DNA from: a bacterium
GTDB lineage: Bacteria > Thermosulfidibacterota > Thermosulfidibacteria > Thermosulfidibacterales > JALWSI01
Assembly (NCBI GenBank): GCA_027080315.1
Contig: JALWSI010000174.1
Location: forward strand, 1-15,540
Length of the DNA stretch: 15,540 nt
Direction: 5' to 3'
Under the pieces are notes generated by a model. The model worked only from the letters and a program-made list of their open reading frames with translations. It was not told the origin of the DNA and made no database searches. Shown piece by piece: positions 773 to 4,743 of the stretch. Every line of letters starts with the position of its first letter. Position 1 is the first letter of the stretch. The position numbers and the translations under genes are program-made.

Positions 773-2116
773 ATGAAGAGAAGCAAGATTTTCAGGTCTC
801 TAATCCTAAGCGTTTTGATTGGAGCCGTGGTGGTTACGGTGTTGCCCATAACAGGCACCACCGCTGGCAAGAAGAACCAGAGGGAAGAGATCTACAAGAA
901 GCTCAGCGTTTTCACCCAGGCCCTGACCTACATTGAGAAGAACTATGTGAAAGAGGTTGATCCTCAAAAGCTCATATACGGTGCCATCAAAGGCATGGTG
1001 GCAGAGCTTGACCCCCACACAACCTTCATGCCCCCTGACTTTTACAAAGAGATGGAGATTGAGACCAAAGGGGAGTTTGGTGGTTTGGGTATAGAGATCA
1101 CCATGAAGAAGGGTATTCTCACCATAGTCTCTCCCATTGAGGGTACACCAGCTTACAAAAAGGGATTGAAGGCTGGAGACAAGATAATAGCCATTGAGGG
1201 CAAACCCACAAGGGGCCTCACTCTTATGGAAGCGGTTAAGAAGCTGAGGGGCAAGAAGGGAACCAAGGTGACCATAACCATCCAGAGGGACGATGAGAAG
1301 CCCTTTGATGTCACCATAGTTAGAGACATTATCAAGGTTAAAAGCGTCTCTTACCGTATGGAGGATCCAAAGGCCAAGATAGGCTATGTCAGGATACGTT
1401 CATTCCAGGAGAAGACCTCTAAGCAGCTTGATAAGGCTCTTAGTGCTTTGGAAAAGCAGGGGATGAGAGCCCTTGTTCTTGATCTCAGAAACAACCCCGG
1501 TGGGCTATTGAGCCAGGCTGTTGGAGTCTCTGATAGATTCTTGGGGAAAGGCAAGCTGGTGGTGTCAATAAAGGGGAGAAACGGTGCCAACGAGGTGAAG
1601 TTTATGGCCCACAAAGAGCATACTTTCCCCTATCATCCCATGGTGGTTCTGGTGAATGCCGGCAGCGCCAGCGCCTCTGAGATCGTTGCAGGTGCCCTCC
1701 AGGACTGGCACAGGGCGGTGATTGCCGGTGAGCGTACCTTTGGCAAGGGCTCGGTGCAGACGGTGTATCCTTTAAGCGACGGTTCTGCCTTAAAGCTCAC
1801 CACTGCTGCCTACTACACACCCACAGGCCGTTCCATCCAGGAAGAGGGGATAATCCCTGATGTTGAGATTCCCTCCGATATCACTGAGAAGTCTGAGGGC
1901 AACAAGACAGTGATCCGTGAAGAGAGCCTTAAACACCACTTTGCTCAAGGGGTGATAAAGCCTGAGAAGAAGAAGGGTAAAAAGGGTGAATCCCAGAAGA
2001 GCCCAGAGGATAAGCTGAAAGACTACCAGCTGAAGTACGCCTTGGAGTTCCTGAAGGGCTGGCTGCTGATCAACAACAAGGAGATCTTTGGCGGAGAAAA
2101 AGCTGCCCAAAGGTAG
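773..2116 (+). CDS. ctpA: S41 family C-terminal processing peptidase (CtpA/Prc)
   Basis: Serine endopeptidase of the periplasm that trims or degrades exported proteins from their C-terminal end. I chose the ATG at 773 (447 aa) because GGAGG lies at 763-767, 5 nt upstream; a TTG at 761 in the same frame overlaps that Shine-Dalgarno sequence and is unlikely. Residues 1-30 form a signal peptide or anchor (MKRSK, then a hydrophobic stretch). A PDZ domain follows at about residues 95-170 (GGLGIEI, GLKAGDKI), then the S41 core with LRNNPGG, nucleophile Ser300 within GSASASE, and Lys325 and Gln329 in GKGSVQT, matching the Ser-Lys dyad of E. coli Prc. The tail from about residue 400 is Lys-rich. It overlaps the next gene by 29 nt. 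CtpA beside a divergent polysaccharide deacetylase is a recurring bacterial neighbourhood, often linked to cell-wall hydrolase control. Confidence 0.95.
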   Translation: MKRSKIFRSLILSVLIGAVVVTVLPITGTTAGKKNQREEIYKKLSVFTQALTYIEKNYVKEVDPQKLIYGAIKGMVAELDPHTTFMPPDFYKEMEIETKGEFGGLGIEITMKKGILTIVSPIEGTPAYKKGLKAGDKIIAIEGKPTRGLTLMEAVKKLRGKKGTKVTITIQRDDEKPFDVTIVRDIIKVKSVSYRMEDPKAKIGYVRIRSFQEKTSKQLDKALSALEKQGMRALVLDLRNNPGGLLSQAVGVSDRFLGKGKLVVSIKGRNGANEVKFMAHKEHTFPYHPMVVLVNAGSASASEIVAGALQDWHRAVIAGERTFGKGSVQTVYPLSDGSALKLTTAAYYTPTGRSIQEEGIIPDVEIPSDITEKSEGNKTVIREESLKHHFAQGVIKPEKKKGKKGESQKSPEDKLKDYQLKYALEFLKGWLLINNKEIFGGEKAAQR

Positions 2117-3500
2117 TTCAAAGAAGAGCCCCTCCCCCTCTTCAAAGGGAGGGGCCTCCCCTTCCAAAAAGAGAAGGAGCACCTCATCCCGGACCAGAAG
2201 GAAGAAAGGGTCTCAGGCGTTTCCTATATTCATAGCTGCCTTTATGGGCTTTCTTGTGGCCTTGCTGCTTGTGGGCGGTTTTTTCGTCTTCAAAAAGCAC
2301 CGCACTTCTCCAGCTCCAAAGGTTGCCACCATGGCCGACTTTCATCCCTCCCCCAAGATTCGGGTTATCATGGGCAGGGTTCATGCCCTTGTGAAGTCTC
2401 TTCAGAGGGAGATGGGAGACAAGGTCGTTACCCTTGTTGACTCTTTCTCTTACTACCAGTGCACAGACAACCGTTGCTGGAGAGTTGAGACCGCCACCTA
2501 TGTCACCGATCTTGCCCCTACCAAGATTCTATCTGAGCTCAGAAGGTCCCTTAGGACCACCCAGGGACTTGAGGACGTTAAGATTGAGAGCAGTTCCTTC
2601 CAGTGGCTTAGGGGAGAGGGTCTTTCGGTCTCTTTTCTCTTCAAAGGACAGCTTGTTGGCAGGTACACCTTTGTGGAGATTGAAAAGGATGAAGACAGAG
2701 AAGAGGCGTTGCAGTTTAAGCCCTTCTTGGAGCCCAATCTTTCCCAGCACCCCGGTAAAGAGCCCCCAATGGTTGCCATTGTGATAGACGACGTGGGCTA
2801 CACGAGGCAGGCAGCTGATCTCTTCCTGGGACTGCCCTTTCCCATCACCGTCTCAATAATACCCTTCACCCCCTTTGTGCACTATGCCATTGAGAAGGCC
2901 CAAAGATCGGGAAAAGAGGTGATGCTTCACATCCCCATGGAGTCTGGCGGCCACAGGGAGGCTATTGAACGCATGGAGTCACGAACCAAGGGCATGCTGA
3001 GGGTCTCAATGTCAGACGCTGAGATACTCGCCATGCTTCGCCGTGAGATTGCCGCTGTACCAGGTGCCATTGGCGCAAACAACCACATGGGATCAAAGTT
3101 CACATGCAACAGGCACAAGATGAAGGTTGTGCTCAAAGAGCTTAACCGCCACGGGCTCTTCTTCTTAGACAGTCTCACCTCTTCCCGCAGCGTTGCCTAC
3201 AGGGTTGCCAGAGAGATGGGCATGCCGGCCTTAAGAAGGGACGTCTTCCTTGATCACTCACACACCAAGAAGGCCATGAACAGGCAGTTCAAAAGGCTTG
3301 CCGCCATTGCCCTTAAAAGGGGGTACGCCGTTGCAATAGGCCATCCCCTTTTGCCAACATACACCATGATAAAAGAGGGGGCTTCCAAATTGAGGGAGAT
3401 GGGTATAGAGATTGTGCCCATATCAAGGCTGTTGAAACGAGTTGAAGGAGCGAAGAATGGGAGAAGTGGTTTTCAAAAGGCCAGAGAGCTTAACCAATAA
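2088..3500 (+). CDS. Divergent polysaccharide deacetylase family protein (DUF610/YibQ-like)
   Basis: Membrane-anchored protein with a NodB-like fold of the divergent polysaccharide deacetylase family; the substrate is not firmly known, and an envelope glycan is the usual assumption. The start is TTG at 2088 with AAGGAG at 2078-2083, inside the end of ctpA. The first 45 residues are rich in Lys, Arg, Ser and Pro, then a membrane helix spans about 46-68, placing the rest outside the cytoplasm. The C-terminal domain (about 225-450) has the expected conserved blocks: IDD at 233-235, HIPME at 281-285, NNHMGS at 331-336, FFLDS, RDVFLD and AIGHP. After the domain ends at about [11 protein letters not shown], a tail of some 20 residues ([19 protein letters not shown]) runs 44 nt into the next gene and looks like a non-homologous extension. 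I am confident of the family, not of the reaction. Confidence 0.9.
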
Positions 3501-3945
3501 GCCCTTTCACTTTTGTCCTGGTTGCCACCACGGAATAGCCCACAGAATTGTGGCCCAGGTGATTGATGAGCTGGGCATAAGGGAGGACACCATCGGCATA
3601 GCACCGGTGGGATGCGCGGTATTTCTCTACGATTACTTCAATCTTGATGTTAGCGAGTCGCCCCACGGCAGGGCCCCGGCGGTTGCCACAGGCATCAAGA
3701 GGTGTATGCCCGACAAGGTGGTCTTCTGCTACCAGGGCGACGGAGAGATAACCGCCATTGGCACCGCAGAGATCGTTCATGCTGCAAACAGGGGCGAAAA
3801 CTTCACGGTGATCTACATCAACAACGCGGTTTACGGGATGACCGGAGGCCAGATGGCTCCCACCACCATTGTGGGGCAAAAGGCGTCAACCTGCCCCTAC
3901 GGCAGGGATCCCCAGAACTCTGGCTATCCCATCCGCATGTCTTAG
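3457..3945 (+). CDS. 2-oxoacid:ferredoxin oxidoreductase beta subunit, N-terminal part ending at in-frame TAG
   Basis: TPP-binding beta subunit of a KorB/VorA-type oxidoreductase, which decarboxylates a 2-oxoacid, transfers the acyl group to CoA and reduces ferredoxin. The start is ATG 3457, with AAGGAG at 3445-3450 six nt upstream. Visible motifs are CPGC at 20-23, [23 protein letters not shown] at 94-96 and INN followed by [12 protein letters not shown], which make up the TPP site. At codon 163 the frame hits TAG (3943-3945) after GYPIRMS. In family members, as I recall them, this reads GYPIR(V/M)SEMLATLEG, so the TAG sits where a Glu codon (GAG) is expected. Family-typical sequence resumes without a frameshift at the next codon. 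This half alone lacks about 84 C-terminal residues and is unlikely to work by itself. Nonsense mutation, split gene and sequence error are all possible. Confidence 0.85.
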
Positions 3946-4197
3946 ATGCTTGCTACCCTTGAGTCTCCTGCCTTTCTGGCCCGGGTTGCCCTAACCAGCC
4001 CTGCAAGGATCAAGAAGGCGAGGCAGGCTGTGAAAAGGGCTTTTCAGATGCAACTGAACGAGATGGGTTTCTCTATGGTTGAGATCCTCTCTGCCTGCCC
4101 CACCAACTGGAGGATGTCTCCCCAGCAGGCCAACAGGTGGATAGAGGAAGAGATGATGCGTTACTTCCCCCTTGGGGTCTTCAAGGATAGGGGTTAA
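3946..4197 (+). CDS. 2-oxoacid:ferredoxin oxidoreductase beta subunit, C-terminal part after in-frame TAG
   Basis: Continuation of the beta subunit in the same frame as the preceding part, beginning with ATG directly after TAG (TAG-ATG). Its 83 residues start MLATLESPAFLARV and carry the conserved end of the subunit: MVEILSACPTNW, WIEEEMMRYFPLGVFKD. No Shine-Dalgarno sequence is seen before the ATG, so separate expression would need termination-reinitiation by the ribosome that stops at 3943-3945. No frameshift or second stop has built up over 250 nt, so the stop is either recent, tolerated, or an error. If the TAG is read as Glu, the joined product is 246 residues, a normal length for this subunit. 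The gamma subunit gene starts 3 nt after this stop. Confidence 0.8.
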   Translation: MLATLESPAFLARVALTSPARIKKARQAVKRAFQMQLNEMGFSMVEILSACPTNWRMSPQQANRWIEEEMMRYFPLGVFKDRG

Positions 4198-4200
4198 AGA

Positions 4201-4743
4201 ATGAACGGCGAAAGAGGAATAGACATCTTTATTGCAGGCATAGGTGGGCAGGGCGCCCTGACTGTGGGAAACGTACTTGCCACTGCGGCGGCCAACCAGG
4301 GGCTTCACACCACTTGGCTTCCTATCTACGGGGTTGAGAAGAGGGGAGGCGAGGCCACCTGCACGGTGCTTCTCTCAGAGTCTCCCATAGAGGCTCCTGT
4401 TGTTGGCAACCCTTCAACGGTTGTTATACTCCACCCCAAGATTCTACACTACGCCGAAAAGGTGAGAGTCAAGGGCAGACTGATTTTGAACACCTCTTTA
4501 GTTGATCCATCTGAGGCTGCCAGAGATGATGTTGAGATCATTGGCATACCTGCCACAGAGATGGCGGCTGAGCTGGGCAGTGAGCAGGCTGCAAATGTGG
4601 TGCTTTTGGGGCTACTGGTTAAACTAAGCGGCATTCTCTCCCTTGACTCCGTTAGAGAGGTTCTTGAGTCAAAGCAGAAAGACGATAGACTGAAAGAGAT
4701 AAACAAGAAGGCCCTTCAGGCTGGCTACGATTTCGTGGACTGA
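4201..4743 (+). CDS. 2-oxoacid:acceptor oxidoreductase gamma subunit (KorC/VorC type)
   Basis: Gamma subunit of the same ferredoxin-dependent 2-oxoacid oxidoreductase as the beta subunit just upstream; it forms part of the heteromeric cytoplasmic complex, in the CoA-side domain. The protein has 180 residues, normal for the family, and shows the Gly-rich GIGGQGA motif at 11-17 and the conserved block WLPIYGVEKRGGEATCTV at about 39-56. It looks intact. The start ATG is 3 nt after the beta gene; a weak AAGGAT/AGGGG-type ribosome site lies at 4183-4193. No alpha (pyrimidine-binding) or ferredoxin-like delta subunit gene adjoins it: polysaccharide deacetylase precedes the pair and uppP follows. 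The substrate (2-oxoglutarate, branched-chain or other 2-oxoacid) cannot be read from this subunit. Confidence 0.9.
   Translation: MNGERGIDIFIAGIGGQGALTVGNVLATAAANQGLHTTWLPIYGVEKRGGEATCTVLLSESPIEAPVVGNPSTVVILHPKILHYAEKVRVKGRLILNTSLVDPSEAARDDVEIIGIPATEMAAELGSEQAANVVLLGLLVKLSGILSLDSVREVLESKQKDDRLKEINKKALQAGYDFVD

Follow-up and report, generated by a model that had tools for sequence, protein, structure and literature searches.

A gene for the beta subunit of a 2-oxoacid:ferredoxin oxidoreductase carries an in-frame TAG at codon 163, which raises the question of whether UAG is read through at this position, whether the stop and the ATG directly after it divide the gene into two working parts, whether the gene is an old pseudogene, or whether the stop is a recent mutation or an error in one assembly. 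The stretch of DNA analyzed (the window; contig C174, 15,540 nucleotides) belongs to a metagenome-assembled genome (MAG) of 1.84 Mb in 253 contigs, with an estimated completeness of 94% and contamination of 2.8%. The features under discussion are as follows.

2088 to 3500, + strand: divergent polysaccharide deacetylase gene (PF04748), overlapping the start of korB, with the same gene order in relatives
3457 to 4197, + strand: 2-oxoacid:ferredoxin oxidoreductase beta-subunit gene (KorB/VorB-like; korB), interrupted by TAG, matching TPP_enzyme_C and PorB/KorB-type profiles
3943 to 3945, + strand: in-frame TAG, codon 163 of korB
3946 to 4194, + strand: downstream part of the korB frame, 83 codons, intact and constrained, with an ATG lacking a Shine-Dalgarno site
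4201 to 4743, + strand: gamma-subunit gene (KorC; korC), intact, the next gene, with a POR domain and a TIGR02175 match above the cut-off

A stop codon inside a conserved korB frame

As assembled, the korB frame opens with ATG at 3457, continues for 162 sense codons to the TAG, and resumes at ATG 3946 to 3948 with 82 further sense codons before TAA at 4195 to 4197, giving the C terminus PLGVFKDRG. The original prediction had described this TAG, the adjoining ATG, and a frame that stays open and family-like to PLGVFKD, all of which were confirmed. The part upstream of the stop (N-part) matched PF02775 (TPP_enzyme_C) at 1.6e-17 and NF008820 at 103 bits over residues 13 to 150, and the latter match rose to 114 bits over residues 13 to 217 when the stop was read through. 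The TPP_enzyme_C domain and the similarity to PorB/KorB profiles place the product among the beta subunits, as do the TPP-binding motif and full-length alignment that it has in common with the solved KorB/PorB/VorB relatives 8ys5, 6n2n, and 5b46. Unlike known members, it is a short form of about 246 amino acids, the gene for its likely alpha subunit lies elsewhere in the genome, and even the read-through protein matched TIGR02177 (7.4e-30, 104 bits) below the curated cut-off of 262 bits; the beta subunit of an intact paralogue on contig C79 also fell below that cut-off, at 92.5 bits. The uninterrupted reading frame expected of a beta subunit is missing. Because the read-through protein aligns with relatives over its full length (75 to 87% identity within the order), the profile match crosses the stop, Glu is nearly invariant at this position, and homologues carry sense codons there, the TAG in the assembled sequence is a true in-frame stop within a conserved gene and not a chance open reading frame (ORF) boundary. 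An Rfam scan of the window gave no match.

Comparison with sister genomes, suggested alongside the original prediction, returned GAG or GAA at codon 163 in every order relative with a matched copy (G001, G002, G003, G005, G006, G007, a partial G008 copy, and the public records L030 and L031 of the G001 and G005 assemblies); no korB homologue was matched in order relative G004, whose assembly is 71% complete. This is the outcome that had been named in advance as marking an error or a strain-private mutation. Glu was nearly invariant at position 163 in a 25-sequence alignment. Across about 100 homologous loci the codon was mostly GAG or GAA, with some GAC, GAT, or AAC (Asp or Asn), and every alignable homologue had a sense codon, with neither a stop nor a split gene at this position among them. 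The stop is therefore private to this assembly, as judged against a comparison set made up of other families of the order and the roughly 100 loci. With Glu in close relatives and no sign of read-through, the TAG is almost certainly a fresh private mutation or a sequence error.

The codon before the stop also differs: codon 162 (3940 to 3942) is TCT (Ser) in the window and GTG or GTA (Val) in all order relatives. Relative to GTG GAG, the commonest pair in relatives, the TCT TAG found here differs at four adjacent bases. Chance or a multibase event may account for this, and so may a consensus fault confined to this spot.

Constraint downstream of the stop and a probable split of the kor genes between two loci

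The age of the stop was judged from substitutions in the downstream part (C-part). Nonsynonymous divergence (dN) of the C-part between the window and relatives was 0.14 to 0.15 for the nearer family and 0.30 to 0.35 for the farther family, and the corresponding C-part/N-part dN ratios (1.5 to 1.8 and 3.2 to 3.4) lay within or below the range of 1.6 to 5.8 found among relatives with intact genes. Six relatives agree at 46 C-part columns, and the window differed from them at five of these (A170S, V185I, I192V, E197Q, and V210I), all conservative changes private to it. Synonymous sites were close to saturation (pS, 0.5 to 0.8), a distance at which prolonged neutral decay would show as much greater damage. 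By these substitution patterns the downstream codons of korB are as constrained as those of relatives, with no relaxation, and the stop is either recent or not real; the dN ratios and the five conservative changes thus bear out the earlier argument that an intact downstream sequence speaks against long decay.

These data bear on the possibility that korB is an old pseudogene, replaced by a paralogous operon elsewhere in the genome. A complete and intact alpha-beta-gamma operon (VorABC-like) is present on contig C79, and its beta subunit is 57% identical, which provides a candidate replacement. However, relatives G003, G005, and G007 carry this paralogue together with an intact window-type beta subunit, korC and the lone korA are intact, and the downstream codons are not relaxed. 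This reading was rejected and is considered very improbable.

The surroundings of the gene point the same way. The order PheA, S41 peptidase, deacetylase, KorB, KorC is kept across order relatives with readable flanks, with BacA next in several of them. No alpha gene adjoins korB-korC in the window (3457 to 4743). A lone, intact korA lies on contig C124 (L220:3052-4173, − strand), flanked by recN-like and glyS-like genes, and each of the eight order relatives carries a close homologue of it. The layout across the order is thus beta and gamma beside the deacetylase without alpha, and a lone alpha at another locus, and the alpha subunit from C124 is the likely partner of the beta and gamma subunits encoded in the window. 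Conservation of this arrangement suggests that members of the order require the enzyme. Since both the operon and the lone alpha gene have been kept, a long-standing loss of korB would be surprising and is unlikely.

Reinitiation, recoding, and the preferred explanation

Of the four origins first listed for the stop, a GAG-to-TAG nonsense mutation and a sequence error fit all the evidence, while a functional split gene and programmed read-through found no support. In a functional split gene, termination at TAG and reinitiation at the adjoining ATG would yield two beta-subunit fragments that assemble. The start codon directly after the stop is what such a gene would have, reinitiation is efficient at very short stop-to-start distances, where coupling can be supported in general (PMC10666635), and the downstream part is constrained. 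Weak reinitiation is therefore possible at TAG-ATG, but nothing suggests selection for it. The Met is an ordinary, ancestral family residue and not a new start, its codon being CTC, CTG, or GTT in three of six order relatives, and the sequence upstream of ATG 3946 contains no Shine-Dalgarno-like purine run. No relative is split. AlphaFold2 modeling (mean pLDDT, 86) places residue 163 in a short helix (161 to 165) directly before a core strand (173 to 178), so that a break at this point would remove two core strands and long helices. A split gene of this kind is accordingly as improbable as the old pseudogene, and a newly evolved two-piece KorB that remains functional in this lineage, whether through TAG-ATG reinitiation or through leaky UAG read-through, is only slightly less so.

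Programmed or general read-through would require pyrrolysine, a suppressor tRNA, or a reassigned TAG, and was examined across the genome. Full-length release factor 1 (RF1) is encoded on contig C98 (527 bits, over the cut-off). The only match in a PylS profile search of the genome was lysyl-tRNA synthetase (LysS), and no CUA anticodon was present among the tRNAs read by ARAGORN, so that the pair that marks pyrrolysine-using organisms, PylS and tRNA-Pyl(CUA), was not found. The tRNA search recovered 36 genes, an incomplete set in which a suppressor tRNA could have been missed; the one tRNA that ARAGORN did not read has a 10-N gap and, inspected by eye, looks like tRNA-His. TAG terminates 99 of 407 genes with closed ends (about 24%) in a sample of 62 contig stretches (513 kb, about 29 kb of it masked), and with RF1 present and TAG in use as a stop, the genome does not resemble one with a TAG-reassigned code. 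Coding-like extensions past stops were also surveyed. Besides a few short TAG extensions (39 to 48 codons) and TAA and TGA pairs with lower scores, the survey gave the best-scoring and longest in-frame pairs, which were tested by Pfam. The tested pairs proved to be distinct neighboring genes, NrdD (below) excepted, and all eight tested in-frame TAG pairs joined two unrelated families, none being an interrupted gene, which makes them ordinary neighbors. Taken together, RF1, the negative searches for PylS and a CUA tRNA, and the ordinary behavior of TAG at gene ends and in gene pairs show UAG to be a normal stop in this genome. Although the frame after the korB stop is open and constrained, recoding was rejected on these grounds, on the lack of conservation, and on the RNA 3′ of the stop, which folds no better than shuffled sequences (z, +0.43), making read-through the least probable of the readings.

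The best explanation, and a highly probable one, is a very recent nonsense mutation or a MAG consensus error in an otherwise normal korB, private to this assembly. A single G-to-T difference has turned the conserved Glu codon to TAG in this MAG, through either a very recent nonsense mutation, which one strain may have fixed or merely contributed to the sample, or a wrong consensus base in the assembly; the two are rated about equal. If the stop is real, RF1 would end translation after residue 162, with little or no translation of the 83 codons downstream, and the beta subunit would be without its final two core strands and the surrounding long helices, probably losing its function. About 3.2% of single substitutions in korB create a stop, so one such event per MAG would be unremarkable.

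The korB stop is ordinary, and its closest known counterparts are genes interrupted in single prokaryote genomes. Frameshifts that interrupt genes in single prokaryote genomes have been attributed to sequencing error or recent mutation (PMC3711429), and as in korB, such singletons occur in one genome only, with relatives intact and the rest of the gene normal. That class concerns frameshifts caused by indels, whereas korB carries a nonsense substitution; a literature search on nonsense artifacts in MAGs gave general material only. A lone in-frame stop in one MAG calls for comparison with sister genomes before recoding is proposed.

A split NrdD and a predicted tRNA-Sec

Two further observations concern other parts of the genome. 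ARAGORN predicted a tRNA-Sec (anticodon tca) on contig C237 (L169:4793-4887, − strand), which means that the organism may encode selenoproteins.

The anaerobic ribonucleotide reductase NrdD is split on contig C16 (L163:689-3040, − strand), where the zinc-site segment is the last part of the core ORF and a separate downstream ORF carries the glycyl-radical segment EIYSRIVGYYRPVQNWNEGKKKEF, with the motif VYSRIVGYYRPVQNWN.GK. The same separation occurs in all eight order relatives (L223 to L230), in which the small ORF does not share the reading frame of the core, encodes 52 to 59 amino acids, and starts with an ATG behind a GGAGG-like Shine-Dalgarno site. Rfam identified no intron at the junction. 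Outside the order, the split was found at L240, L241, L242, L244, L246, L247, L256, L257, and L259, with NrdD fused at other loci; counted from the match table, roughly 24 of about 60 matched nonorder genomes had a short open frame. A limited literature search found no description of a split NrdD with a stand-alone glycyl-radical ORF, and novelty is not claimed. At L247 (outside genome G130), the small ORF is extended in frame by a thioredoxin/glutaredoxin-like segment (CPGCKPVKN). The arrangement is similar in principle to YfiD, the spare part of pyruvate formate-lyase (PMC8683613), and a stand-alone glycyl-radical subunit would merit separate study.
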